Shown piece after piece: positions 19,657 to 41,822 of a stretch of DNA of 64,000 nucleotides. The notes under the pieces are model-generated. The model was given only the letters and a program-made list of their open reading frames with translations. It ran no database searches and had not been told where the DNA came from. Within the stretch, counting starts at the first letter, position 1. Every line of letters begins with the position of its first letter. This DNA comes from Aphanothece cf. minutissima CCALA 015 (GTDB taxonomy: Bacteria; Cyanobacteriota; Cyanobacteriia; PCC-6307; Cyanobiaceae), in the NCBI GenBank assembly GCA_003003925.1, contig PVWP01000012.1, forward strand, positions 19,383 through 83,382, in the 5' to 3' direction. The position numbers were made by a program, and so were the translations under genes.

Positions 19657-19923
19657 TCAGCGCTTCGCGGCGCCGCCGCCGGCAGCCCCGCCCTCACGGC
19701 ACAGCCTCAGATACAGGGCGTCCGGCTCCTGGTACCGCGCCGGACGGCAGTCGTGCAGCCGGGCCAGCTGCAGCCAGCAGACGGTCCGTTGCACGGTCTT
19801 GAGACTCTTGCCCTCCCGCACCAGCATCCGCATGGCCCGGCAGTAGGAGCCGTAGTGCTCATCCAGGTCCGGGAGGTCGCGGGACCGGTCGGCGCTGGGG
19901 CGCTGGTCGGAGGGAACGCTCAT
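19657..19923 (-). CDS. Small protein of a two-member paralogous family (copy A)
   Basis: An 88-residue protein of unknown function. Its core HYGSYCRAMRMLVREG followed by KSLKTVQRTVCWLQL closely matches the protein at 40937-41215 (NYSMYCKALRLLVREG, RTLKKIQRTVCWHRL). Both have a conserved Cys-containing basic helix pair and then a Tyr-x-(D/E)-PD segment before a leucine-rich end. A Gly/Ala-rich tail is present here. ATG 19923 is chosen because it removes an unrelated leader. It reads toward the TerB-like gene, 110 bases away. Confidence 0.75.
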   Translation of the reverse strand: MSVPSDQRPSADRSRDLPDLDEHYGSYCRAMRMLVREGKSLKTVQRTVCWLQLARLHDCRPARYQEPDALYLRLCREGGAAGGGAAKR

Positions 19924-28556: not shown

Positions 28557-29804
28557 TCACTCGTCGTTGCGCTGGGCCACCAGGGCTTCATAGGCGGTGC
28601 AGAACGGCTCCCCCAGGGCGTCCCGCAGGGGCGCGTCGTGGCGGAAGGCCTCGAGGGCATCGGCGTGACAGGTGGGCAGGGAGGTCGCCCCCGCCGGCGA
28701 CTCCACGTAGGTGTTCACGTCGCTGCGGGCCCCGGGATTGAGCTGCCGTTCCATGCCGTCCAGGCCCGCCGCCAGCACCGCCGCCTGGAGCAGGTAGGGG
28801 TTGGCGGCGCCGTCGCCGAGCCGCAGCTCGATCCGCTGGTCGTCGGGGATGCGGACCATGTGGGTGCGGTTGTTGCCGCCGTAGCTGATCCAGGAGGGGG
28901 ACCAGGTGGCGCCGGAACTGGTGACGGACCGGGCCAGCCGCCGGTAGCTGCCGGCCACCGGATTGGTGAGGGCGCACAGGGCCGGCGCATGGGCCAGCAG
29001 ACCGGCCAGAAAGCGGTAGGCGATCTCCGACAGGCCCTTCTCCCCGGCCGGGTCGTGGAACACGTTGCGCCCCCCCTCGTCCCAGAGGGAGGCATGCAGA
29101 TGGGCCCCGTTGCCGGTGAGGGCCGGAATCGGCTTGGGCTGGAAGCTCACCCGCACCCCATGGCGTTCCGCCAGGGCGGCCGCCATGACCCGGAAGAAGG
29201 CATGGCGGTCGGCGGTCAGCAGCGATTCGGCATAGGTCCAGTTGAGCTCGAACTGGCCGTTGGCGTCCTCGTGATCGGCCTGGTACGGGCCCCAGCCGAG
29301 GCTCTCCATGCCGTCCAGCAGTTCGCTGATCAGCGGGTAGTGGCGCATCAGGGCCAGTTGGTCGTAGCAGGGCTTGGACTGCCGGTCGAGGCCATCGGCG
29401 ATGGCGTCCCGTTCCGGGTCCATCAGGAAGAACTCCGCCTCCACGCCGCTGCGGAACTGCAGGCCCAGGGCCGCTGCCCGGGCGATCTGGCGCTGGAGCA
29501 CCCGGCGGGGCGACTGCTCCAGCACCTGGCCCTCCACCTGCAGATCGGTGGCCACCCAGGCCACGTCCGGCTGCCAGGGGAGCACCATCAGGCTGCTGGG
29601 ATCGGGGATCGCCAGCACGTCCGGATCGGCCGGGGTCATGTCCAGCCAGGCGGCGAAACCGGCGAAGCCGGCGCCGGATCGGGCCAGTTCGGCCGCCGCG
29701 GCCGCCGGCACCAGCTTGGCCCGCTGCACCCCGAACAGGTCGCAGAAGGAGAAGAGGAAGTGGCGGATGCCATGGGTGGCGGCGAAGCGGGCCAGATCGG
29801 TCAT
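28557..29804 (-). CDS. GlnT-type (type III) glutamine synthetase family ligase, copy 2
   Basis: A 415-residue glutamine-synthetase-fold ligase of the group that includes gamma-glutamylmethylamide synthetase. GVEAEFFLMD, DHEDANGQFELNW, GNGAHLHASLWD and NNRTHMVRIPDD are the ATP and glutamate site segments. The usual flap with the ammonium-binding Glu (FEAP) reads ATWSP, so ammonia may not be the acceptor. It resembles the copy at 36963-38327 throughout. It is followed by a 75-base gap from the alpha/beta hydrolase gene, same strand. Confidence 0.87.
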   Translation of the reverse strand: MTDLARFAATHGIRHFLFSFCDLFGVQRAKLVPAAAAAELARSGAGFAGFAAWLDMTPADPDVLAIPDPSSLMVLPWQPDVAWVATDLQVEGQVLEQSPRRVLQRQIARAAALGLQFRSGVEAEFFLMDPERDAIADGLDRQSKPCYDQLALMRHYPLISELLDGMESLGWGPYQADHEDANGQFELNWTYAESLLTADRHAFFRVMAAALAERHGVRVSFQPKPIPALTGNGAHLHASLWDEGGRNVFHDPAGEKGLSEIAYRFLAGLLAHAPALCALTNPVAGSYRRLARSVTSSGATWSPSWISYGGNNRTHMVRIPDDQRIELRLGDGAANPYLLQAAVLAAGLDGMERQLNPGARSDVNTYVESPAGATSLPTCHADALEAFRHDAPLRDALGEPFCTAYEALVAQRNDE

Positions 29805-29879
29805 CGGGAGGTGTGGGGGGGCGGGTGTGGGGCGGTGAGGGTGGTGGCTGGCCGGAGGCGGTCCGTCGCTGCAGGGCCG

Positions 29880-30971
<1,092 letters not shown>

Positions 30972-30982
30972 GGGAGTGGGAT

Positions 30983-31978
30983 TCAGGGGAGGGCCAGACG
31001 GGCGGGATCGCGCAGGAAGTCGCGGTGCACCGACAGATAGCCCTGGCCTGTGTGCACCTCGTGGGGGGCCAGATGGCGATGGGCCTCGGCGAGGGCGTGG
31101 AAGGGTACCGAGGGGTAGAGGTGGTGCTCGACGTGGAAGGGCATCTCCCACATCAGCCAGCGCAGGGGAGGAAGGGTCCGGGTGGTGCGGGTGTTGCTGA
31201 GGCCGTTGCTGTCGGTGCTGCAGCCCCCGTGCTCGGCCATCAGCACGAAGCGCAGCAGGGGCTGGCCGACGGCCAGGGGCAGCAGCCAGTACCAGAACAG
31301 GGCGCCGTTGCCCTGCCAGAAGGAGGCGGCGAGCAGGGCGGCGTAGACGGCGACCTGGAGCCGGATCGAGCGGGTGACGGCCGCGGCCGCCTCGGCGGGG
31401 ATGTAGGGCCTGCCGCCGAAGTCACCGCGCAGGCCGGCGGTGTGGCCCCGCAGCTTGCCGATCCACCAGGGAATCCCGCTGAGCTCCAGCAGATAGGCGG
31501 CCAGGGTGCTGGGGGGGGCCTCCTCCAGCTCCGGATCGAGGCCCGGCTGGTGGGTGAAGCGATGGTGCCACTGGTGGTAGCGGCGGTAGTAGTCGGCGTT
31601 GTAGAAGCTCAGCAGTCCGGCCCACCAGGCCACGGTGTCGTTGAGGCCCTTGCCGGCGAAGGCGGTGCGGTGGCCGCACTCGTGCATGGCGCAGAAGCCG
31701 AAGGCCAGGCCCCAGCCCAGCAGCAGCAGGCCCGTCAGACGCAGGGCCCAGAACCCAGCGCCGGGAAGGGCCTGCGGCCAGGGCCATCCCCAGAGCAGGG
31801 CCCCGAGCCCCAGCACCGCGAGGTGGAAGGTCAGCCGGCGCCAGCCGGGTCCGTCTCGACGCTCGTTGAGGCGCTGCAGCAGCGGAGCGGACAGCAGCGG
31901 CTCGGCGGCGCCCGGGCCGGCCGCCGGTGGCGCGGAGGGTGGGGAGGCGGTCACGAAGGTCGCCGTCGGCCGGCGCAT
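30983..31978 (-). CDS. Fatty acid desaturase-like membrane di-iron enzyme
   Basis: A 331-residue protein with the three histidine boxes of membrane desaturases and hydroxylases: HECGH, HQWHH and HVEHH. Hydrophobic pairs lie around residues 55-105 and 200-240. Lengths and box spacing fit a front-end/omega-type desaturase or a carotenoid hydroxylase, which cannot be separated by eye. The start ATG 31978 lies 144 bases from the divergent TIM-barrel gene. The stop is 11 bases before the hydrolase start, so the two are co-transcribed. Confidence 0.87.
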   Translation of the reverse strand: MRRPTATFVTASPPSAPPAAGPGAAEPLLSAPLLQRLNERRDGPGWRRLTFHLAVLGLGALLWGWPWPQALPGAGFWALRLTGLLLLGWGLAFGFCAMHECGHRTAFAGKGLNDTVAWWAGLLSFYNADYYRRYHQWHHRFTHQPGLDPELEEAPPSTLAAYLLELSGIPWWIGKLRGHTAGLRGDFGGRPYIPAEAAAAVTRSIRLQVAVYAALLAASFWQGNGALFWYWLLPLAVGQPLLRFVLMAEHGGCSTDSNGLSNTRTTRTLPPLRWLMWEMPFHVEHHLYPSVPFHALAEAHRHLAPHEVHTGQGYLSVHRDFLRDPARLALP

Positions 31979-32122: not shown

Positions 32123-32980
32123 GTGCCTTCCCTGCTGTTCTTCTCCCTCTGGGGCTTCGAGGGCCCCCTGGCCACCGCCCTGGAGACGGCCGAGCGGGGG
32201 GGCTTCGACGGGCTGGAGCTGAACATCCTCCATCCATCCCTGGTCAGCGACCCGGCCGGACCCGCCCGCCTGCTGGGGTCCGGCAGACCCCTGGTGCTGG
32301 AGGTGGTCACCGGCGGCGGCTACGTGCCGGAGCTGGCCGTCACGCCGGCGCAGCACCTGGCGGAACTGGACGACCAGCTCCGCCGCTGCGCCGCGCTTCG
32401 CCCCCACCGGGTGACCGTGCTCACCGGCAGCGATGCCTGGCCCCTGGAGCGGCAACAGGCCTTCCTGGCCGAGGCCCAGACGCTGGCGGCGACCAGTGGC
32501 CTGGCGGTGAGCTTCGAGACCCACCGTTCCCGCTGCCTGGGGATGCCCTGGACGATCGCGCCGCTGCTCGAGGCCGTGCCGGGTCTGCGGCTTACGGCCG
32601 ACCTGAGCCACTGGTGCGTCGTGGCGGAACGGCTGATGACCCCGGATCTGGCGCCGGTGCGGTTGATGGCCGACCGGGTCGACCACATCCATGCCCGGGT
32701 GGGCCATGCCCAGGGTCCCCAGGTGTCCCATCCCTTCGCCCCGGAGCATGCGGAGGCACTCGCGGCCCACCGGGCCTGCTGGCGCCTGTTCACCGAAAGG
32801 GCGCTCCAGCGTGGTGCTGCGCCGCCCAGCTTCACCCCCGAGTTCGGACCGGACGGCTACATGCCCACCCTCCCGTTCACCGACCGTCCGGTGGCCGACC
32901 TGCTGACGATCAACGTGGCGATGGCGCAGTGGTTGCGTAGCCAGCTGTTAGCCGGAAACAGCGATAAGCTGTGTTCATAG
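32123..32980 (+). CDS. TIM-barrel sugar phosphate isomerase/epimerase family protein
   Basis: A xylose-isomerase-like barrel of 285 residues. The metal ligands appear as Glu in VSFETHRS, Asp in LTADLSHWC, His in HIHARVGH and Glu in FTPEFGPDG. The start is a GTG at 32123 giving VPSLLFFSLWGFEG; no better start was found. The substrate is unknown. It is divergent from the desaturase gene and ends inside a TGTTCA/TGAACA palindrome before a small downstream gene. Confidence 0.85.
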   Translation: MPSLLFFSLWGFEGPLATALETAERGGFDGLELNILHPSLVSDPAGPARLLGSGRPLVLEVVTGGGYVPELAVTPAQHLAELDDQLRRCAALRPHRVTVLTGSDAWPLERQQAFLAEAQTLAATSGLAVSFETHRSRCLGMPWTIAPLLEAVPGLRLTADLSHWCVVAERLMTPDLAPVRLMADRVDHIHARVGHAQGPQVSHPFAPEHAEALAAHRACWRLFTERALQRGAAPPSFTPEFGPDGYMPTLPFTDRPVADLLTINVAMAQWLRSQLLAGNSDKLCS

Positions 32981-32999: not shown

Positions 33000-33215
33000 A
33001 TGAACGTGATCGACGCCCCGACCGCCTCACCGTCGGCCAGCCGCTCCAGCGATGGGTCCGATCCCCGCCGGGCCGCCCTGGTCGCTTCCCTGCGGGCCCG
33101 CTACGCCATCGCCGAGCAGCGCCAGGACGCCGATGCCAAGCGCGCCCTGTTCAAGGAGGCGGCTTACCTGGGCATCCGCCCCGACGCGTACCAGGGCTCC
33201 AGCAGCGCCGCGTAG
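33000..33215 (+). CDS. Small hypothetical protein, 71 residues
   Basis: The N-terminal 25 residues are Ser/Ala/Pro-rich. The remainder is a charged helix pair (RAALVASLRARYAIAEQRQDADAKRALFKEAAYLGI). No family is recognised. ATG 32997 or 33000 are both possible. Its last 52 bases overlap the end of the Rieske oxygenase gene on the opposite strand. Confidence 0.55.
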   Translation: MNVIDAPTASPSASRSSDGSDPRRAALVASLRARYAIAEQRQDADAKRALFKEAAYLGIRPDAYQGSSSAA

Positions 33216-34213
33216 ATCGCCTGCTGGTGCAGGATCCGGGCCTCCAGCCTGTGCGGCGGGCCGGTGCGGAAGCCCTCCCTGTAGCCGCGCTGGGCCGATT
33301 CCACCAGGGCCCGGTCCTCGGCCAGGAAATGGACCATCTCCGCCATCAGTGCCTCCCCTTCGTCCTGGCGTGAGGCGGGCCCCAGCAGCCACACCTGCAT
33401 GTGGCAGGTGTCCAGCGTCTCGGGCAGGAACTGGATCATCGCCAGCCGTCCGTCGGGCCACAGCAGCAGGTGGTTCCAAGGCGGCAGGCCGAAGGTGAGA
33501 AACGCACCGTCCCCCTCGGGTGAGGGGGTGGCCAGCACGTTGGCCCAGGTGCCGAAGCGATGGCGGTAGTCGCGCACCGGGCCCTGGAGCCGATGCAGGG
33601 TGGTGGGATGGGCGATGGCGACGTGGTAGTCGTCGAGGGTGTTGTCGTGGGCGATCTTCCAGTTGCAGGCAAGCCCCCGTTCGTGGAAGGCCAGGGGCAC
33701 CAGGGTTCGGGCGAGGGCGTCGGGGGCTTCCTGCAGCGGCAGATCCAGCTGGTCGTCGATGGGGATCGGCTCGGCCCCCAGGGCCACCCAGATCAGGGAG
33801 GCCCGCACCTGGCAGTCGAGGGCCTCCAGCGGCCAGGCGCCGCGCTCGAACGGGTCGACGAACTCCCCTTCCCTGGCGGCCGCCAGCAGCGTTCCGCCCA
33901 GGTCGTAGGTCCAGCCGTGGTACGGGCAGACCAGCCGGCGGCAGGCCACGCTGCCTTCCGCCGGCTCGTGGAAGGCCACGGCCCGGTGGGGACAGCGGTT
34001 GCGGAAGGCCCGCACGGCCCCATCACGGCCGTGGCAGAGCAGTACGGGAAGCCCCAGCAGCTCCAGCGCCCGCACATGCCCCGGCGGCAGATCGGCGGCG
34101 GCGGCGACGGGGTGCCAGAAGCGGGTGGCGTAGTGCTCGCGCTCGAGGGCGGCGACGGCCGGGGAGCCGTAGAGATCCGGCGGCAGAAAGGCGGCCCGGG
34201 TGGCGGTGTCCAT
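33164..34213 (-). CDS. Rieske non-heme iron oxygenase
   Basis: A 349-residue alpha-subunit-like oxygenase. CPHRAVAFHEP and CPYHGWTYDLGG give the Cys-x-His and Cys-x2-His ligands of the 2Fe-2S cluster. NWKIAHDNTLDDYHVAIAHP matches the mononuclear iron motif with two His and one Asp. It resembles monooxygenases that hydroxylate or demethylate small amines or aromatics (choline monooxygenase, vanillate demethylase groups). It sits directly after the ABC transporter ATPase gene, 34 bases away, as the last gene of the guanidine block, so an alkylated guanidine or similar amine is an attractive but unproven substrate. ATG 34213 gives MDTATRAAFLPP. Confidence 0.88.
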   Translation of the reverse strand: MDTATRAAFLPPDLYGSPAVAALEREHYATRFWHPVAAAADLPPGHVRALELLGLPVLLCHGRDGAVRAFRNRCPHRAVAFHEPAEGSVACRRLVCPYHGWTYDLGGTLLAAAREGEFVDPFERGAWPLEALDCQVRASLIWVALGAEPIPIDDQLDLPLQEAPDALARTLVPLAFHERGLACNWKIAHDNTLDDYHVAIAHPTTLHRLQGPVRDYRHRFGTWANVLATPSPEGDGAFLTFGLPPWNHLLLWPDGRLAMIQFLPETLDTCHMQVWLLGPASRQDEGEALMAEMVHFLAEDRALVESAQRGYREGFRTGPPHRLEARILHQQAIYAALLEPWYASGRMPR

Positions 34214-34247: not shown

Positions 34248-35024
34248 TCAGAGCAGGGAACCATCCAGGCTGCGCAGGCGGCTGGCCAGTTCCTCCCGCA
34301 GCTCCAGGAAGGGCTGGGACACGCGCAGGTGGCGCAGGTCGGAGCGATCCAGACGGACATCGACGCTGTGGACGATCCGGCCGGGCCGCGGCGCCATGAT
34401 GTGAACGGTGCCGGCCAGCAGCAGCGCCTCCTCGATGTCGTGGGTGATCAGCAGCGCGGTGAGTCCGGTGCGCTTCCAGAGGTCGTGGAGGAATTCCTGC
34501 ATCGATTCGCGGATCTGCAGATCCAGCGCCCCGAACGGTTCGTCCAGCAGCAGCACCTTGGGCTCTGTCGCCAGGGCCCTGGCGATGGCCACCCGTTGCT
34601 GCATGCCCCCCGAGAGTTCCCGGGGCAGCAGCCGGGCCGCGTCCGCCAGCCCGACCACGTCGAGGAAGTAGGCGGTCCGCTCGCGGATCTCCGCCTTGTC
34701 CCGTCCCCGGAGCGACAGGCCGAAGGCCACGTTCTGCGCCGCCGTGAGCCAGGGGTAGAGGCTGTACTTCTGGAACACCATGCCCCGGTCGGAGCCGGGG
34801 CGCCGGACCGGCACGCCATCCAGCTGAATGGTGCCTTCGCTGGGCCGCTCCAGACCGGCGATCAGCCGCATCACGGTGGACTTGCCGGAGCCGGAACTGC
34901 CGACCAGGGCCATGAACTGACCCGAGACCAGTTCGAAGCTGATGTTCTCGAGAACGAGCTTGCGATCCCGCCCCTCGCCGAAACTCTTGGAGACCTGGGA
35001 AACCTGGAGATGCATGGGGTTCAA
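34248..35024 (-). CDS. ABC transporter ATPase (nitrate/sulfonate/guanidine type)
   Basis: A 258-residue ATPase. GSSGSGKST is Walker A, KYSLYPWLT the Q-loop region, LSGGMQQR the signature and VLLLDEPFGALD Walker B. It belongs to the SsuB/NrtD-like family. It overlaps the permease gene by 4 bases and is read after it. Synechocystis sll1082 is the corresponding gene of the guanidine hydrolase cluster, so uptake of guanidine or a related cation is inferred. ATG 35024 or 35015 are both plausible. Confidence 0.94.
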   Translation of the reverse strand: MNPMHLQVSQVSKSFGEGRDRKLVLENISFELVSGQFMALVGSSGSGKSTVMRLIAGLERPSEGTIQLDGVPVRRPGSDRGMVFQKYSLYPWLTAAQNVAFGLSLRGRDKAEIRERTAYFLDVVGLADAARLLPRELSGGMQQRVAIARALATEPKVLLLDEPFGALDLQIRESMQEFLHDLWKRTGLTALLITHDIEEALLLAGTVHIMAPRPGRIVHSVDVRLDRSDLRHLRVSQPFLELREELASRLRSLDGSLL

Positions 35025-35806
35025 TTGGCCCAGGAACAGGACCGTCGCATCAGAAACCGGAAACCCAGATCGATCATCAGGCCGATCAGTCCGATCACGA
35101 TCAGGCCGACGAAGATCTCATCGGTGCGCAGGAATCGCTGGGCCAGGCTGATGCGTTTACCCAGTCCCTCGTTGGCGGCCACCAGTTCGGCGACGATCAC
35201 GAGGTTCCAAGCCGAGGCCATGTTGATCCGGTAGGTGTCGAGCACCTGGGGGGCGATGTAGGGGGCCACCACCCGGGTCAGGATCGGCAGGCCCCGGCCT
35301 CCCAGGGTGAGGGCCGTTTCCACCAGTTCGGAGGGAACGAACTTCACCGCATCCATGATCATCAGGGTATTGAAGAAGAAGGTGCCGATGAAGATGAGCA
35401 TCACCTTCGGCAACTCCTCAAGACCGAAATAGATGATCAGCAGGGGGATGAAAGCGGGCGCCGGCATGTAGCGGATCAGCGCCATCAGTGGCTCGAGAAA
35501 GTGGCAGATGGTCCGGTTCGTGCCCATGGCGATGCCGATCGGCAGGGCCAGCCCTGCCGAGATGGCGAAGCCGATGAACACCCGCTGGATGCTGGCCACC
35601 GCATCCGCCACCAGGATGCCGCGCTGGAACTGGTCGCTGCCCGCCAGCCACACCGCTCCGGGGCTCGGCAGGAAGAGCTTGTCGACCATGCCGCTGGCGG
35701 TGACCAGCCACCACATCAGGAAGACGGTGAGGATGCCGAGCACCCCCAGAACCCAGGGGTGGCTGAGGAGGCGGCGCAGGGCGGGGGACCGGGCCATGGT
35801 GCTCAA
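35021..35806 (-). CDS. ABC transporter permease (SsuC/NrtB-like)
   Basis: A 261-residue permease with six hydrophobic spans. The cytoplasmic coupling loop LTLGGRGLPILTRVVAPYIAPQVL contains the EAA-like GxxxxxxxxxxxP segment. It forms the channel for the ATPase downstream and the lipoprotein upstream, overlapping each by 4 bases. It corresponds to sll1081 of the guanidine cluster in Synechocystis. Confidence 0.94.
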   Translation of the reverse strand: MSTMARSPALRRLLSHPWVLGVLGILTVFLMWWLVTASGMVDKLFLPSPGAVWLAGSDQFQRGILVADAVASIQRVFIGFAISAGLALPIGIAMGTNRTICHFLEPLMALIRYMPAPAFIPLLIIYFGLEELPKVMLIFIGTFFFNTLMIMDAVKFVPSELVETALTLGGRGLPILTRVVAPYIAPQVLDTYRINMASAWNLVIVAELVAANEGLGKRISLAQRFLRTDEIFVGLIVIGLIGLMIDLGFRFLMRRSCSWAN

Positions 35807-36813
35807 CGGGCGTTGTCGACGAACTGGGAATTCAGCAGGTTGGTGAGGTCGGGCTTGGTCTTGGCCAGGCCCGTCTCCACCAGGAAGGCGCTGATCTGCT
35901 CGGCGGCATAGGGCAGCGACAGCATCGTGGTGCCCGGCTTGAAGTTGCTGCGGTTCTCCTCGAGGGTCTGGATGGTGGTGCCGGCGTTGTACTCCTTGAA
36001 CTCGGCCTCGCTCACGCCGGAGCGTTCCACCAGAATCGGCAGGGTGCCGGCGGGGTCGTCCTTGATCGTGGCGAGCGTGGCGAACCAGGCGTTGACGATC
36101 TTCTGGACCTTCTCGGGATTCTTGGCGACGAATTCCGTGCGGCAGACGAGCAGATCGCTGATCGCCCCGGGGTGATCCTTGGAGGTGGCCAGGGCCCGGC
36201 TACCCGGCCGCTTCAGAGCCTGGGTGGTGAATGGCGCATAAACGCCCGCCGCATCCACCTTGCCCGCCGCGAAGGCGGCGGCGGCGGCACCGGTTTCGAG
36301 GGGAACGAAGGTGATGTCCTTGGCGGAGAGGCCCGCATCCTTGAGCACCTTCAGCAGCAGGAAGTGGTCGACGGTGCCTTCCTCGGCGGCGACCTTCTTG
36401 CCCTTCAGATCAGGGATCGACTTGATCTCGGCCGCGGCGATGATCTGGTCATTGCCCGTGGAGAAATCGTTCTGGAGCACCACCTGGAGATCCGCTCCAC
36501 CCGCCACCGAACTGATCGTGTCGTTGAGGGTCTGGCTGTTGCAGTCCAGCTGGCCGGCGTTGAGGGCGTTGATCGAATCCAGATAGCCGTCGAACCACTG
36601 CATCGAAGCCGCCACCCCCTGCTTGTCGAACAGCCCCTTGACCTCGGTGACCTTCCAGGGGAACCAGCCCGGCCAGGCGCTGTAGCCGATCTTGACGGGC
36701 GTCTCCTGGCTGGCCGGCTGCTGGCAACCGGCCAGCAATCCTCCCCCGAGGGCGGCCATCAGGGCGAGGGCGATGGCCCGGCGTTGACGACGGAAAAAGG
36801 TGGCTTTCAACAT
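35803..36813 (-). CDS. ABC transporter substrate-binding lipoprotein
   Basis: A periplasmic-binding protein of the NMT1/nitrate-taurine type, 336 residues. The leader RRAIALALMAALGGGLLAGC ends in a lipobox with the modified Cys near residue 30. VKIGYSAWPGWFPWKV opens the first domain, and the WPGW and DAAGVYAPF motifs line the pocket. The expected ligand is a small cation such as guanidine, from the cluster context. ATG 36813 is chosen for the correct signal peptide. A 149-base gap separates it from the upstream ligase gene. Confidence 0.93.
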   Translation of the reverse strand: MLKATFFRRQRRAIALALMAALGGGLLAGCQQPASQETPVKIGYSAWPGWFPWKVTEVKGLFDKQGVAASMQWFDGYLDSINALNAGQLDCNSQTLNDTISSVAGGADLQVVLQNDFSTGNDQIIAAAEIKSIPDLKGKKVAAEEGTVDHFLLLKVLKDAGLSAKDITFVPLETGAAAAAFAAGKVDAAGVYAPFTTQALKRPGSRALATSKDHPGAISDLLVCRTEFVAKNPEKVQKIVNAWFATLATIKDDPAGTLPILVERSGVSEAEFKEYNAGTTIQTLEENRSNFKPGTTMLSLPYAAEQISAFLVETGLAKTKPDLTNLLNSQFVDNAR

Positions 36814-36962
36814 CAGGAAATCGGGGGAGGGGCGGTGGCTGCTCGGATGGGAAGACGACCGGTTCAGGCGCGTTTCCGAGTCGATGGTGAACTGGAAAGT
36901 GGGCTGGGTTCGAGACCCTGTTGCGTGGGTGGATGGGTGAAGGGAGCCCCCCGTGAAGAGGC

Positions 36963-38327
36963 TCAGAAGAACTCCAGGTAACGCTGCTGTTCCCATTCGG
37001 AAACAGCCGAGTGGTAGGACTCCCACTCTTCACGTTTGTAGGAGACAAACGCCTGGAACATGGCATCACCGAATACGCTTTCGGCAAGTGGATCGGCCGC
37101 GAAGGCCTCCACCGCCTCACCGAGCGTTCGGGGCAGCATGTTCAGGCCCCGTTCGGCCCGTTCCGCGGCGCTGAGTGTGTAGGCATTCACCAGGTTGGGG
37201 GCGCCGGGATCCAGTTCTTCTCGGATCCCTTCCAATCCGGCCGCCAGCATCAGGGCAGCGCCGAGATAGGGGTTGCAGGAAATGTCGGCAGCTCGGCATT
37301 CCACCCGGCCACCGGGTGAGGGAATGCGCAGCATGTTGGTGCGGTTGTTGTTGCCGTAGCAGACGAACACCGGTGCCCAGGTGAATCCCGACATGCTCCC
37401 CTGGGCCACCAGGCGCTTGTAGCTGTTGACCGTCGGGGCGATCACCGCGCAGATGGCGGGGGCGTGGCGCAGCACACCGGCGATGAAATGTTCCGCCAGC
37501 CGGGTGACCTTGCCGGGGGTCGCCTCGGGTGTGGCGAACAGGTTGGCCCCGGTCTGAACGTCCGCCAGGGACATGTTGAAGTGGGCGCCACTGCCGGTGC
37601 GATCCCCGAAGGGCTTGGGCATGAAGGTTGCCAGCAGACCGTGCCGATGGGCGATCTCCTTGGCCATCAGCTTGAAGAAGGTGAGCCGGTCGGCCATGGT
37701 GAGCACGTCGGCGTAGTCGAAATCGGTCTCGAACTGGCCGGGGCCGTCCTCGTGGTCGAAGGAATAGACCCCCCAGCCCAGGCCGTTCATCGCCTGCACC
37801 AGTTCGTCCAGCCAGGGCAGGTTGTCGAGCAGGCCGCGCACGTCATAGGCGGGTTTGTCGAGGGTGTCGCGGTCGCTGAAGGGGACCCAGCCCCCCGCGG
37901 CCCCCTTCTTCAGCACGAAGAACTCGGTCTCGATGCCGAGGTTGAAGCGGAAGCCCATGGCGGCCGCCTCCTGGCGCACCCGGCCGAGAATGTGGCGGCT
38001 GCAGGCCTCGAAGGGCCGGCCGTGCAGGTGCAGGTCGCTGGCGAACCAGGCCACCTCCGGCTGCCAGGGGAGCACGGTGACGCTGGCGGGATCGGGAACC
38101 GCGGCCACCTCGTCGTCGCTCACCTCCTGGGGAACGCCGTCGAGGGCCGCCCCGGTGAACAGTTCGGAGCCGGCCATCATCTGGCCGAGGTGCTCGAGGG
38201 GCACGGCCTTGGCCTTGCTCACCCCGTGCAGATCCACGAAGCTCGCCAGGGCGTAGCGGACCCCCTTGGAACGCAGGTCGGCCTGCAGGGCCGTGGTGGG
38301 GTCGGAGGCGGGATGCTGGTGACTCAT
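36963..38327 (-). CDS. GlnT-type (type III) glutamine synthetase family ligase, copy 1
   Basis: A 454-residue ATP-dependent gamma-glutamyl ligase of the glutamine synthetase fold. GIETEFFVLK, DHEDGPGQFETDF, GSGAHFNMSLAD, NSYKRLVAQ and NNNRTNMLRIPSP are the active-site segments. The ammonium-binding Glu of the flap (FEAP in GSI) is replaced: the sequence is FTWAP. Family members such as gamma-glutamylmethylamide synthetase use amines. It overlaps the hypB stop by 1 base (TGATG), so it is translated with the guanidine-hydrolase maturation genes. Its likely job is to glutamylate ammonia or an amine derived from the guanidine pathway. Confidence 0.9.
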   Translation of the reverse strand: MSHQHPASDPTTALQADLRSKGVRYALASFVDLHGVSKAKAVPLEHLGQMMAGSELFTGAALDGVPQEVSDDEVAAVPDPASVTVLPWQPEVAWFASDLHLHGRPFEACSRHILGRVRQEAAAMGFRFNLGIETEFFVLKKGAAGGWVPFSDRDTLDKPAYDVRGLLDNLPWLDELVQAMNGLGWGVYSFDHEDGPGQFETDFDYADVLTMADRLTFFKLMAKEIAHRHGLLATFMPKPFGDRTGSGAHFNMSLADVQTGANLFATPEATPGKVTRLAEHFIAGVLRHAPAICAVIAPTVNSYKRLVAQGSMSGFTWAPVFVCYGNNNRTNMLRIPSPGGRVECRAADISCNPYLGAALMLAAGLEGIREELDPGAPNLVNAYTLSAAERAERGLNMLPRTLGEAVEAFAADPLAESVFGDAMFQAFVSYKREEWESYHSAVSEWEQQRYLEFF

Positions 38328-39028
38328 CAGGCGTGCATCAAGGCGGGGGAGGTCTGGACGGCCTGGCGCTGGGCGTCGAGCCAGTCGTGCCAGGCCTCGA
38401 AACCCTCTCCGGTGGTGGCGGAGAGGCGGAACACGGCGGTGCGGGGGTTCACCTGGCGGATGTGGGCCTCGATCCGCTCCACATCCACCGGCAGGTGGGG
38501 CAGCAGATCCACTTTGGTGATCAGGACGCAGTCGGCTTCCCGGAACATGACCGGGTACTTGAGCGGCTTGTCGTCCCCCTCGGTGACGCTCAGGAGCGCC
38601 ACCTTGCGGTGCTCCCCGATGGCGAATTCGGCGGGGCAGACCAGGTTTCCCACGTTCTCCACCCAGAGGATGTCCAGAGCGGCGGGATCGAGCCGCTGGC
38701 GCAGCAGCTTGAGGCCGCCGCTGACCATGGCGGCATCCAGGTGGCAGGCACGACCGGTGGTGATCGGCACCACCGGAATCCCCACGGCCTCCAGACGCTC
38801 GGCATCCAGCAGGGTGGTCATGTCGCCCTCGAGCACGGCCATGGCCCAGCGGCCGGCGAGGGCGGCCAGGCTGCGCTCCAGCAGGGAGGTCTTGCCGGCG
38901 CCGGGGCTGCTCATCACGTTGAGGCAGAGCAGGTTCCAGGCGTCGAAGTGCTCGCGGTTGTGGTCGGCCCGGTGCTGGTTGGCCGCCAGCAGGTTGAGGC
39001 CGAGGGTGTCTTCGAGGGGCATGTGCAT
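38327..39028 (-). CDS. hypB: Nickel-insertion GTPase HypB
   Basis: A GTPase that delivers nickel to an apoenzyme. [13 protein letters not shown] is the P-loop, and [16 protein letters not shown] contains the G-domain metal Cys. The N-terminus lacks a His-rich nickel store. The 233-residue length fits GTPases of the guanidine-hydrolase cluster (Synechocystis sll1079). No hydrogenase genes are visible here, so the client is expected to be the guanidine hydrolase two genes upstream. Starts at 39028 and 39022 are both possible. Confidence 0.95.
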
Positions 39029-39034
39029 GGCGGA

Positions 39035-39460
39035 TCAGCGGGCGGCGGTGGGGAGGGAAGCGGTGGTTGGTGCGGTAGGCGAGGCGGGGCTGGTGGACGG
39101 GGCGGTTTCGAAGCCGTAGGCGACGGAGCGGATTCGCAGTTCACGGCCGCTGACGATCTCCTCCATCGGGTGGTGGCAGCAGGGGGAGCGGAAACCGTCG
39201 GCCGGGTCGGGGCTGTAGGTGGCCTGGCAGCGGACGCAGCGCCCCACCAGGGGCACCGACTCGATCACCAGCTCGGCGCCGTCGAGCCAGCTGCCCTTGA
39301 CGGCATCGGCCCAGGTGACCACCAGCTGGTCGGGTTCGACGCAGGTGAAGGTGCCCACTTCGAGATGGACCCGATCCACCGCCGGCACCCGGGGAGCGTG
39401 CTGCTGCTTCCACTCGTTCATGGACAGCAGCAGGCAGCGCGTCATGTCGACTTCATGCAT
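39035..39460 (-). CDS. hypA: Nickel chaperone HypA
   Basis: The N-terminal MHEVDMT holds the nickel-binding His2 and Glu3. Zinc ligands start with C75-V-R-C78, but the second pair reads C94-C95-H96-H97 instead of C-x2-C. EEIVSGRELRIRSV matches the end of the HypA core, followed by a low-complexity Thr/Ser/Ala tail of about 25 residues. It corresponds to sll1078 of Synechocystis. It lies 3 bases from the hydrolase stop and 6 bases from the HypB start. Confidence 0.92.
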   Translation of the reverse strand: MHEVDMTRCLLLSMNEWKQQHAPRVPAVDRVHLEVGTFTCVEPDQLVVTWADAVKGSWLDGAELVIESVPLVGRCVRCQATYSPDPADGFRSPCCHHPMEEIVSGRELRIRSVAYGFETAPSTSPASPTAPTTASLPTAAR

Positions 39461-39463
39461 GCC

Positions 39464-40678
39464 CTATCTCCAGGCGCGGTCGACCTGCATGTTGCAGTCC
39501 CTGGAGAGCCAGGCGGGGGCTGACTTACGGGGCAGCTGACCACTCACCACCAGGTGGGCCATGGTGTCGCAGATGACCCGGGTGGCCATCAGGGAGGTCA
39601 TGTCGCTGACGTCGTAGGGGGGGGAGACCTCCACCACCTCAAGGCCGCAGACGGGCACGTTGCGCACGATCAGCTCCAGCAGCTTGAGGGCCTCGCGCGG
39701 CAGCAACCCTCCCGGTTCGGGCCAGCCGGTGCCCGGCACGAAACCGGCATCGATGCAGTCGATGTCGAAGGAGATGTAGACGCAGTCGGTGCCGTCGGTG
39801 GCCCGCTCGATGGCGTACTTGGCCGCCGCCTCCAGGCCCATGTCGCAGATGTCGGTGACGGTGAGCACGTTGGTGCCCCGCTCGCGGCAGACCTTCACCC
39901 CCTCCCGCGGCACCTGCCAGCCGCCGATGCCCAGCTGCACCAGGTTCTCAGCCGGGGCGTTGGCCATGTTGGTGGCATGGAACCACGGGGTGGTGTGCAT
40001 GCGCTCGTCCAGGTCGGTCTCCTGGGTGTCGACGTGGCGATCGAAGTGGATGATGCCCACCTTCTTGTCGCCGAGGTGGCGGCAGACGCCCCGGACGGTG
40101 GGGAAGCCGATCGAGTGGTCGCCGCCCAGGATGATCGGGAAGGCGCCACTGGCGAACACGTGGGCGATGCCCTTGGAGATCTGATCGAAGCTCTTCTCGT
40201 TGTTGGCGGGGATGGTGAAGATGTCACCCACGTCGCAGAGGGTGATCTGCTCCCGCAGATCCACCCCCATCTCGTAGTTGTAGGGGGTGTAGAGGGCCGA
40301 GATGCGCCGGATGCCCTGGGGGCCGAAGCGGGTGCCGGGCCGGTAGGTGGTGCCGCTGTCGTGGGGAACGCCCACCACCGCCACGTCGAACTCGCCGACG
40401 CGGTTCACATCCTCGATGTAGGGCGCCTTCATGAACGTGTTGATGCCCGCGAAATGGGGCAGTTCACCGCGGGAGAAGGTGGAGATGCGCCGGTCGACGA
40501 TGCTCGCGGCCGCCTCCAGGCCATAGCGGTGTCCCAGGTCGACTTCCTGTTGCCAGCCGGTGAGGGGCAGGGAGGCTTCCTTCTCCAGGGCCCGGGCCCC
40601 TTCACTGCCGGCCGGGTGGGGCCCCCGGTCGAAGGCGCTGGCCGCATCGGACGGGCGGCCGCTGGACGGATCGTTCAT
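39464..40678 (-). CDS. gdmH: Guanidine hydrolase (Ni-dependent, ureohydrolase family)
   Basis: Hydrolyses guanidine to urea and ammonia; related to agmatinase/arginase but nickel-loaded through HypA and HypB. The 404 residues include LGGDHSIGFPTV, IHFDRHVDTQ, YISFDIDCIDAGFVPGTGWPEPGG and EVVEVSPPYD. These supply the His and Asp metal ligands, and the long N-terminal region is typical of Sll1077-like enzymes. It is preceded by a guanidine-I riboswitch, which supports guanidine as the substrate. ATG 40678 follows an AGAGGT ribosome site. A longer frame upstream would cover the riboswitch and is rejected. Confidence 0.94.
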   Translation of the reverse strand: MNDPSSGRPSDAASAFDRGPHPAGSEGARALEKEASLPLTGWQQEVDLGHRYGLEAAASIVDRRISTFSRGELPHFAGINTFMKAPYIEDVNRVGEFDVAVVGVPHDSGTTYRPGTRFGPQGIRRISALYTPYNYEMGVDLREQITLCDVGDIFTIPANNEKSFDQISKGIAHVFASGAFPIILGGDHSIGFPTVRGVCRHLGDKKVGIIHFDRHVDTQETDLDERMHTTPWFHATNMANAPAENLVQLGIGGWQVPREGVKVCRERGTNVLTVTDICDMGLEAAAKYAIERATDGTDCVYISFDIDCIDAGFVPGTGWPEPGGLLPREALKLLELIVRNVPVCGLEVVEVSPPYDVSDMTSLMATRVICDTMAHLVVSGQLPRKSAPAWLSRDCNMQVDRAWR

Positions 40679-40710
40679 TCGGACCTCTGAGCACGGTGGG
40701 GATGGGGCGG

Positions 40711-40860
40711 TCTCCCGGGCTTTTGTCCCTCCGTGCCACGCACCGGTGAGAACAGGGTTCTCGCATCCGGTGGGTGCGCTTCTCTCGGACCAGGCATCCC
40801 CCCGGTTGCCGGCAGTGCCAGAAATGGCAAGGCCAGCAATGGGGGACCGGAACCCTAGAA
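40711..40860 (-). promoter_or_regulatory. Guanidine-I (ykkC) riboswitch
   Basis: On the minus strand the conserved elements appear in order: CTAGGGTTCCGG (40857-40846), CTGGTCCGAGAG (near 40794-40783), and ACGGAGGGACAAAAGCCCGG then GAGA (40734-40711). These match the ykkC aptamer that senses guanidine. It lies 33 bases before gdmH and should switch on the whole cluster. A GCACGG/CCGTGC pairing (40736-40731 with 40696-40691) places the 3' arm next to the AGAGGT ribosome site, which suggests control of translation. Confidence 0.95.
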
Positions 40861-40936
40861 GCAATATCCGCTCAGTGATCCTGAAGGCCCCCGGGCGGGA
40901 CGGTTGTGACGGTTGCTACGGGATTCGGGCGCGGGT

Positions 40937-41215
40937 TCAGGTAGGGCAGGGGAGACCGGCCGCCTTGCGGTTGGTCTCGCGGCGCAGCAGCAGGAAGAGA
41001 TAGTCCGGGTCCTTGTACTGGCTCGGCAGGCACTGGTGCAGTTGCTCGAGCCGGTGCCAGCAGACCGTGCGCTGGATCTTTTTGAGGGTCCGACCTTCCC
41101 GGACCAGCAGGCGCAGAGCCTTGCAATACATCGAATAATTGGCCTCCAGTTCACCGATGGTGACTTTCGGGATCGTGACCTTCGGCAGGGACGCTGGAAG
41201 CGATCGGGCGGTCAT
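40937..41215 (-). CDS. Small protein of a two-member paralogous family (copy B)
   Basis: A 92-residue protein. ELEANYSMYCKALRLLVREG and RTLKKIQRTVCWHRL closely match copy A at 19657-19923. The start MTARSLPASLPKV at 41215 contains a short duplicated KVTIPKVTI segment. The sequence suggests two basic helices that may bind nucleic acid; this is inference. The gene reads toward the riboswitch, 77 bases away, and is probably separately expressed. Confidence 0.8.
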   Translation of the reverse strand: MTARSLPASLPKVTIPKVTIGELEANYSMYCKALRLLVREGRTLKKIQRTVCWHRLEQLHQCLPSQYKDPDYLFLLLRRETNRKAAGLPCPT

Positions 41216-41421
41216 CGGCCATCCTTCGGGGCAGGCCCCGCAGAGATCCATCCACTGTCGTCCATCGGCGGCCGGGGCGCGCCCCCCATCCGGGGACATT
41301 CCCGCGCCGGTCGCCGATCGGCCAGAGGCGAGCGCCATGGGGGTTCCCTGACCAGCCCGGCGCCGGGGAGTGGCACCCCTTCCGATTCAGTTAAGGTTTG
41401 GGCAGCAGACGAATCCCCGGC

Positions 41422-41580
41422 ATGTACGAAGACCATCCCGTGATGAACGCGCTGCTGCAGCAGCTCCGCTCCCTCAACGAGCAGTACAGCCACCTCCCCA
41501 ACGAGCTCAACCGGTACCGCGTCGTGCGCCAGGAGCAGCTGATCGCCCAGTGGGCCCCCGGTGTCAGCGTCGCCGGCTGA
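41422..41580 (+). CDS. Very small tandem paralogue 1, 52 residues
   Basis: Contains QQLRSLNEQYSHLPNELNRYR and the motif NRYRVVRQEQLIAQW shared with the next gene. It is highly charged, helical and without a signal or membrane span. ATG 41422 is used; an earlier in-frame start at 41398 lies too close to the preceding region. It looks like a picocyanobacteria-type small protein of unknown function. Confidence 0.75.
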   Translation: MYEDHPVMNALLQQLRSLNEQYSHLPNELNRYRVVRQEQLIAQWAPGVSVAG

Positions 41581-41618: not shown

Positions 41619-41822
41619 ATGAACAAGAACCACCCCGTCTACCACTCCCTCATGGCCAGGCTGGAGAGTCTGCGGGACCAGTACCGGCAGCATCCCAGCG
41701 AGCGGAACCGTTACCGGCTGGTGCGGCAGGAGCAGCTGATCGCCCAGTGGGTGGCCGCCTCCGACCTGCCGACCCCTTTCTTCGCTTCCACGGGCGGCGC
41801 GCCGGCACCGGCGCCAACATGA
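41619..41822 (+). CDS. Very small tandem paralogue 2, 67 residues
   Basis: Contains LESLRDQYRQHPSERNRYR and NRYRLVRQEQLIAQW, matching paralogue 1 nearly residue for residue. It carries a Pro/Ala-rich C-terminal tail absent from paralogue 1. The two genes lie 38 bases apart in the same direction, evidence of tandem duplication. GTG 41616 is adjacent to ATG 41619; the ATG is preferred. The function is unknown. Confidence 0.75.
   Translation: MNKNHPVYHSLMARLESLRDQYRQHPSERNRYRLVRQEQLIAQWVAASDLPTPFFASTGGAPAPAPT

Follow-up and report, generated by a model that had tools for sequence, protein, structure and literature searches.

A guanidine-I riboswitch-led gene cluster of Aphanothece cf. minutissima with a GmaS-like ligase and a Rieske oxygenase that may demethylate methylguanidine

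We analysed a 64,000-nucleotide stretch of the Aphanothece cf. minutissima CCALA 015 genome (contig PVWP01000012.1; hereafter the window) that carries a minus-strand gene cluster for guanidine use. Its order is a guanidine-I riboswitch aptamer, gdmH, hypA, hypB, a ligase gene, the binding protein, permease and ATPase genes of an ATP-binding cassette (ABC) importer, and a Rieske oxygenase gene. The aptamer (40710..40869) matches the full RF00442 model (1-107) at 78.7 bits, over the gathering threshold of 63, and is the sole Rfam match across the whole window; from its sequence we identify it as a guanidine-I riboswitch, which in the reading proposed below would turn on the operon. A pattern scan for promoters and terminators returned 0 and 3 against 0.5 and 3.0 in shuffles, with no excess, and free folding of the leader gave a z of -1.8, weak taken alone. 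The range first described, 34248-40860, ends 9 bases before the 5' end of the aptamer, and the Rieske gene (33164..34213) lies just beyond it.

The gdmH product (39464..40678; arginase family, PF00491) has its best PDB relatives in 7esr/7oi1, at 761 bits, while the best other chain (9fek excluded too) reaches 171 bits; it groups with Sll1077 rather than with agmatinases, the NCBIfam agmatinase model also scoring slightly above its cut-off (176.6 versus 174.3). HypA, the nickel chaperone (39035..39460; PF01155), passes Pfam at 83.3 bits (cut-off 28.9), yet at 74.3 bits stays below the NCBIfam equivalog cut-off of 88.1, and HypB (38327..39028) matches the nickel-insertion GTPase model TIGR00073 at 278 bits (cut-off 121). 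The importer comprises a substrate-binding protein (35803..36813) of the SsuA family (TIGR01728, 234 bits, cut-off 163.5), a permease (35021..35797; PF00528; alternative start TTG at 35806) and an ATPase (34248..35015; PF00005; alternative start TTG at 35024). The ligase (36963..38327) scores 568 bits with the type III glutamine synthetase family model TIGR03105, whose cut-off is 469.6; its start shares one base with the hypB stop (TGATG), 149 bases separate it from the binding protein gene, and 34 bases separate the ATPase from the Rieske gene. The preliminary description was right about the riboswitch, about the match of gdmH, HypA, HypB and the ABC genes to the Synechocystis cluster sll1077-sll1082, about a GlnT-family ligase overlapping the end of hypB by one base, and about a Rieske gene after the transporter. 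The cluster is not a chance assembly, because gdmH orthologues occur in 102 of 242 genomes surveyed and the same gene order recurs in other loci. The whole arrangement is also found in Cyanobium sp. N.Huapi 1H5 and Synechococcus sp. BO 8801, the closest named relatives among the matches listed, with gdmH 96-97% and Rieske 91% identical to those of the window.

The Rieske protein (PF00355, PF00848) carries the C-x-H and C-x2-H motifs, the two histidines and one aspartate, and the bridging aspartate of Rieske non-heme iron oxygenases. The residues C74, H76, C96, H99, H197, H202, D300 and D195 are invariant in 25 aligned rows; their roles as cluster ligands, iron ligands and bridging aspartate are those we presume from general knowledge of the family. 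Its predicted model (predicted local distance difference test score, pLDDT, 88.8) is closest in fold to stachydrine demethylase and to the carnitine monooxygenase CntA (E 1.7e-24, 24% identity), and the same two lead by sequence among solved structures, at about 20-25% identity; the modelled fold is thus nearest to C-N cleaving Rieske enzymes that act on N-methyl compounds. In a tree of 92 proteins, for which 13 of the 30 cyanobacterial loci from the profile search described below were used and the cut locus L091 omitted, a single cyanobacterial clade of 35 rows held all 31 of the guanidine-linked rows included (support 99, Shimodaira-Hasegawa-like approximate likelihood ratio test). The clade rows L071, L072, L073 and L095 have no guanidine-degrading gene in their stretches, and their genomes hold gdmH or CgdB elsewhere. 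Beside the Rieske genes of L072 and L073 stands a gene of about 256 amino acids, which in L073 is an NNMT/PNMT/TEMT-family methyltransferase.

The survey sample comprised 242 cyanobacterial genomes of the class (labelled G###, G000 being the window's genome); fetched stretches are labelled L###, and gene maps cover 40 of them plus the window. Orthologues were accepted at 72% identity or more for gdmH, 56% or more for the ligase and E up to 1e-25 for the Rieske protein, and genes were called linked within 10 kb. gdmH is present in the 102 genomes mentioned above (including G029 and G227, each in two pieces, G217, truncated where its contig stops, and G009, with one internal stop, and excluding broken copies in G003, G004 and G007), CgdB, which belongs to the guanidine carboxylase pathway, in 38, the ligase in 51 at 54 places, and the Rieske gene in 27. 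gdmH or CgdB is found in 26 of the 27 Rieske genomes and 48 of the 51 ligase genomes, set beside 139 of 242 in the whole sample, a comparison uncorrected for ancestry; Fisher tests of co-occurrence and the chance figures for the MgdL-Rieske adjacency described below likewise ignore shared ancestry. Twenty of the 27 Rieske genes are linked to gdmH, CgdB or a guanidine-I riboswitch, 17 of these to the riboswitch, and 12 of the 17 lie inside a riboswitch-led gene run, six together with gdmH (G000, G119, G146, G221, G055, G150) and six without it (G134, G210, G176, G196, G148, G236). The fetched stretches L098, L119 and L121 are apparently the same contigs as G119:C18, G176:C32 and G148:C34, and are not independent of them.

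Gene maps revealed several combinations of these parts. L077, L078, L079, L090 and the cut L091 have the order gdmH-hypA-hypB-ABC-Rieske and no ligase; the ligase follows hypB in the window and L076, and sits between hypA and hypB both without a Rieske gene (L057-L061) and with one plus an alpha/beta hydrolase (L080, L081). Six loci (L083, L084, L085, L087, L088, L089) have a ligase-ABC-Rieske operon with neither gdmH nor hypAB in the stretch, each with its own guanidine-I riboswitch. The Rieske gene is also found next to guanidine carboxylase genes in L092 and L093, and together with the ligase in L082 and L086; the riboswitch of all four heads the carboxylase genes and does not lead the Rieske gene. 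It therefore accompanies either guanidine hydrolase or guanidine carboxylase genes, which belong to two unrelated guanidine-degrading pathways. Riboswitch-led runs with the ligase and no Rieske gene occur in L065 and L094, the latter having two guanidine-I riboswitches, one for gdmH-hypAB and the other for a run of ABC, creatininase-family and ligase genes (the creatininase-family call rests on likeness to the L065 gene). Because both genes also occur in riboswitch-led operons without gdmH, the ligase and the Rieske gene are separable parts of a guanidine gene set and not mere additions to gdmH, as which the preliminary description had treated them.

Among the best 80 matches of a Rieske profile search, 30 loci were cyanobacterial, 19 of them Prochlorococcus; gdmH lay in the same stretch in 22, three were of the kind without gdmH, and five were contigs starting in or after the cluster. 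The Rieske gene thus stays beside gdmH in Prochlorococcus and Synechococcus, and the 50 non-cyanobacterial loci showed no such operon. A ligase 64% like that of the window lies in an alphaproteobacterial metagenome-assembled genome (L166:1-3350) near a Rieske gene of 27% identity outside the cyanobacterial clade, and L133 has a gene 32% like gdmH. Spread on plasmids was considered and rejected: all 259 plasmid records matched by the ligase stayed below 60% identity, the Rieske protein matched a single record at 29.7%, and the MgdL-like protein of L084 matched none. The Rieske gene had no near match among phages.

Could the two extra genes be passengers or general nitrogen genes, the ligase re-assimilating ammonia and the Rieske enzyme doing an unrelated job? 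In keeping with this, among the 102 gdmH genomes only 9 have the Rieske gene and 13 the ligase within 10 kb of gdmH, and 23 of the 54 ligase places have neither riboswitch nor gdmH nor CgdB nearby (27 are near the riboswitch, 13 near gdmH, 4 near CgdB and 31 near any of them, with 17 near the riboswitch in the absence of gdmH). These figures also qualify an expectation that both genes would be co-inherited with gdmH, which stood in the window's own family, where sampled genomes with gdmH have the Rieske gene 3.8-5.3 kb from it in 5 of 5 and the ligase in 2 of 5, and failed for most gdmH genes elsewhere. We nonetheless regard the passenger explanation as improbable, given the recurring linkage to several guanidine gene sets, the separate riboswitch of all six fetched ligase-ABC-Rieske operons without gdmH, retention in streamlined Prochlorococcus, the MgdL neighbours of the Rieske gene and the missing ammonia-site residues of the ligase. 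Plain hitch-hiking of the Rieske gene was set low on the same linkage, operons and neighbours.

In Vreelandella, MgdL is a lyase narrowly specific for N-(hydroxymethyl)guanidine that partners the 2-oxoglutarate dioxygenase MgdH (PMC12508155). In eight fetched loci (L082-L089) there stands next to the Rieske gene a gene with relatives that give weak matches to the HRI1 family, PF16815 (27.7 bits in L083 and 29.4 bits in L084, cut-off 27); when the Pfam model was run on four such proteins, those of L083, L084 and L190 passed and that of L186 failed. A profile built from the cyanobacterial proteins found relatives in 18 of 341 genomes of the order Pseudomonadales (the order of an Endozoicomonas genome), and in 10 of 13 gammaproteobacterial stretches fetched from 12 of these 18 genomes the relative adjoins a relative of the 2-oxoglutarate dioxygenase. 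L186 has the order of the published operon, with ABC genes, cgdA, cgdB, gca, dioxygenase, MgdL-like gene and atzF, a guanidine-I riboswitch at the front and a guanidine-II match at the cgdB-gca junction. Its MgdL-like protein (row L179) has D-x-R at positions 49 and 51; the alignment shows D49/R51 in all 10 rows that span these positions, and E122, E131 and W133 in 11 of 11. Comparison of the cyanobacterial and gammaproteobacterial groups by hhalign gave 99.6% (E 1.8e-23), versus 0.3% for a control pair, and an AlphaFold model of the MgdL-like protein (pLDDT 60.7) was too low for a structure search. On these sequence comparisons we assign the cyanobacterial Rieske neighbours to the MgdL-type family, by way of gammaproteobacterial relatives in an operon of the published type. 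In the survey an MgdL-like gene is present in 21 of 242 genomes and lies 5-297 bp from the Rieske gene in nine, six of which belong to one genus; 9 of the 10 genomes with both genes have them adjacent, and in G103 they are on different contigs. An MgdL-like gene with one in-frame TGA directly follows the Rieske gene of L090 (5504-6200, minus strand), and a different Rieske gene, of 27% identity, precedes the MgdL-like gene of L190, a stretch from the Pseudomonadales set.

Because related Rieske genes have such neighbours, we consider N-demethylation of methylguanidine, or of a close N-alkylguanidine, to guanidine for GdmH the most likely reaction, and give it about an even chance; the neighbours likewise lend weight to an earlier suggestion that the cluster handles substituted guanidines. 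Since a comammox guanidinase is reported inactive on methylguanidine (PMC11410670), use of methylguanidine would require a demethylase. In this scheme the riboswitch would switch on a nitrogen-scavenging operon, the importer would take up guanidine and related small guanidino compounds, and HypA and HypB would load GdmH with nickel, allowing it to convert guanidine to urea and ammonia, as others have shown for Sll1077 and as we infer for the window. The Rieske enzyme would add a hydroxyl to the N-methyl group of its substrate, methylguanidine or a close N-alkylguanidine, and the hemiaminal would break down to formaldehyde and guanidine, the latter passing to GdmH. In some other cyanobacteria the MgdL-type lyase beside the Rieske gene may speed this breakdown; in the window's genome it may be spontaneous or performed by another enzyme. 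Photosynthetic ferredoxin is our guess for the electron donor.

Several observations weigh against methylguanidine demethylation. The reading is weakened for the window itself because no MgdL homologue was found in its genome, and there was none in G119, G146, G221, G055 or the Prochlorococcus genome G244. Twelve of the 21 MgdL-like genes do not lie beside this Rieske gene, their fetched stretches showing no member of this Rieske clade next to them, and the narrow D-x-R pattern matched 7 of 13 open reading frames (ORFs) in these stretches. Seven of the 27 Rieske genes are unlinked (G056, G214, G171, G010, G145, G103, G070), that of G056 on a 3.6-kb contig and that of G010 at the start of a contig, and outside the window's family few gdmH genes have a Rieske gene nearby. 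In five of the 17 riboswitch-linked cases (G085, G096, G049, G118, G099) it is carboxylase genes that the riboswitch heads, and the Rieske gene lies just upstream of it or on the opposite strand. The Vreelandella guanidine-I riboswitch did not bind methylguanidine (PMC12508155), and the cluster has no reductase gene. Lastly, G002 and G027 (the genomes of L080 and L081) have the operon and no guanidine-I match in the whole genome, Rfam at a relaxed threshold finding none in L080, L081, L095 or L074; G056 similarly has a gdmH-ligase operon in a genome without any match, and the gdmH-ligase operon of these three genomes would therefore be under other control.

The ligase is closest in the PDB to glutamate-methylamine ligase 9qur (397 bits) and GmaS 7cql (338 bits), chains named glutamine synthetase scoring 279 or less. 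With residue numbers from PMC7948447, the place of Asp50' is Thr in 26 of 26 orthologues and that of the Glu-flap glutamate Trp in all 25 rows covering it, so that the ammonia site is absent; the GlnT-type label given at first therefore holds for the family and not for an ammonia ligase. K30', Y147, D177, E179 and E186, five of seven GmaS pocket residues, are kept, while 26 of 26 orthologues from the fetched stretches have Ser in place of Q175 and Asp in place of N188, so the methylamine pocket of GmaS is not intact. This change is not seen in the GmaS-like paralogue of L094 nor, as read from the alignment, in the window's own GmaS, and the ligase of L191 has the same residue pattern, as read from its sequence letters. 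GmaS proper (28557..29804, minus strand; 512 bits with 7cql) lies outside the riboswitch-led run. An ammonia glutamine synthetase was rejected on the missing Asp50' and Glu-flap residues, and a plain GmaS on the altered pocket and the presence of this closer GmaS. Because the ammonia residues are absent, five pocket residues kept and Q175 and N188 changed, we take the ligase to be a putative amine ligase of its own kind, with a substrate neighbourhood near that of GmaS; it would couple glutamate to an amine that belongs to this pathway.

Aniline dioxygenase systems, in which a ligase makes a conjugate that an oxygenase then oxidises, offer a model in which the ligase acts first, making a gamma-glutamyl amine conjugate for the Rieske enzyme to oxidise. 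Ligase and Rieske gene do occur together in 15 of the 242 genomes and share riboswitch-led operons that lack gdmH, but the five ligase-less loci L077, L078, L079, L090 and L091 and those of Prochlorococcus have the Rieske gene by itself, and L057-L061 the ligase by itself; we judge this order of events to have only a slim chance.

Larger guanidino compounds rank next after methylguanidine as Rieske substrates. Here the enzyme would attack a compound of the creatine or creatinine type, a guanidino acid, or an agmatine or arginine derivative next to the guanidine nitrogen, freeing guanidine and an aldehyde, and the ligase and creatininase-family partners would act on the same compound. Ligase relatives adjoin creatininase-family genes in L065, L094 and L191, the riboswitch leading the run in the first two, and the nearest Rieske structures use carnitine and stachydrine, both bigger than methylguanidine. 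Against this, the MgdL-type neighbour suggests N-(hydroxymethyl)guanidine (PMC12508155) and the window's operon has no creatininase-family gene; we regard larger substrates as unlikely, though they deserve more weight than the passenger or ligase-first explanations. In L191, from the Pseudomonadales set, MgdL-like and MgdH-like genes adjoin ABC genes, the creatininase-family gene and the ligase relative (55%). In L203 (G077:C49:152000-170000) an MgdL-like gene, the ligase, a creatininase relative (81% to that of L065) and ABC genes stand close together, and two other Rieske genes (28% and 27%) lie in the run with the ligase and the MgdL-like gene.

Downstream of the operon, GmaS is paired with a MetX-like alpha/beta hydrolase gene (29880..30971, minus strand; PRK07581, 345 bits, cut-off 332), a possible extra part; the pair (28557-30971) stays nearby in L076, L096, L097, L098 and L125, and relatives of the hydrolase adjoin the Rieske gene in L080, L081, L082 and L086. 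The next gene (30983-31978, minus strand) is of the fatty-acid-desaturase family, its best NCBIfam match being a weak, partial one to the guanitoxin arginine hydroxylase GntB (47 bits, cut-off 380). Facing the Rieske gene is a TIM-barrel gene (32123-32980, plus strand; PF01261, 28 bits, below cut-off), relatives of which hold the same place in L076, L077, L079 and several Synechococcus loci. Upstream of the operon are two tandem small ORFs of similar sequence (41422-41580 and 41619-41822, plus strand), and two short look-alike ORFs lie at 40937-41251, a DUF3136 gene, and 19657-19923 (both minus strand).

Guanidine riboswitches are widespread, and the source of the guanidine, like the range of its relatives that are used, is still in question. 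Should the Rieske enzyme turn methylguanidine into guanidine, this question would become directly testable in cultured cyanobacteria, and a gene left functionless by a published survey (PMC10119275) would gain a function; the residue signature of the ligase is a searchable mark for a further step. Tentatively, and at somewhat less than an even chance, we picture a second, independently evolved methylguanidine demethylase in cyanobacteria including Prochlorococcus, in which a Rieske enzyme replaces MgdH, shares MgdL in some lineages and serves both hydrolase and carboxylase pathways, together with a new ligase subfamily that acts on a substituted guanidine or its amine and occurs in two phyla, next to creatininase-family hydrolases. 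On that picture methylated guanidines would be a genuine source of nitrogen in lakes and the sea. A search of the open-licence literature, in which some of the papers found were looked into, brought up none tying this Rieske enzyme or ligase to methylguanidine.

The gdmH-hypAB-ABC core was already known, and the Rieske gene in such clusters had been published without a function; the linkage of the Rieske gene to two guanidine pathways, its MgdL-type neighbours and the altered GmaS-like ligase are findings of this analysis. In Synechocystis, Sll1077 hydrolyses guanidine, and the order of riboswitch, gdmH, hypA, hypB and three ABC genes in sll1077-sll1082 is that of the window (PMC8390497), which adds the ligase after hypB and the Rieske gene after the ATPase. 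The Rieske gene, correctly noted at the outset as an addition, is not new: a picocyanobacterial survey placed it downstream of the guanidine cluster in most Synechococcus and Cyanobium genomes having that cluster, suggesting for it merely a use of iron (PMC10119275). The survey's clusters Syn-eCAG_001 and Pro-eCAG_004 have the same core and downstream Rieske gene as the window, and the passage describing them contains no ligase, MgdL-type partner or Rieske reaction. The ligase shares with GmaS (7cql; PMC7948447) the fold, the five retained pocket residues and the lack of Asp50' and of the Glu-flap glutamate, and differs at 175 and 188. CntA and stachydrine demethylase, the best matches of the Rieske protein, act on quaternary ammonium acids and are distant in sequence. 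With the V. boliviensis MgdH/MgdL system (PMC12508155) the cluster shares a guanidine-riboswitch operon, an ABC importer and a guanidine-degrading enzyme, and nine related cyanobacterial genomes share an MgdL-type gene beside an oxygenase. The window differs in that its genome shows no MgdL homologue and its cluster no MgdH: the 2-oxoglutarate dioxygenase domain is absent from the nine cluster proteins scanned, and a Rieske oxygenase stands in its place.

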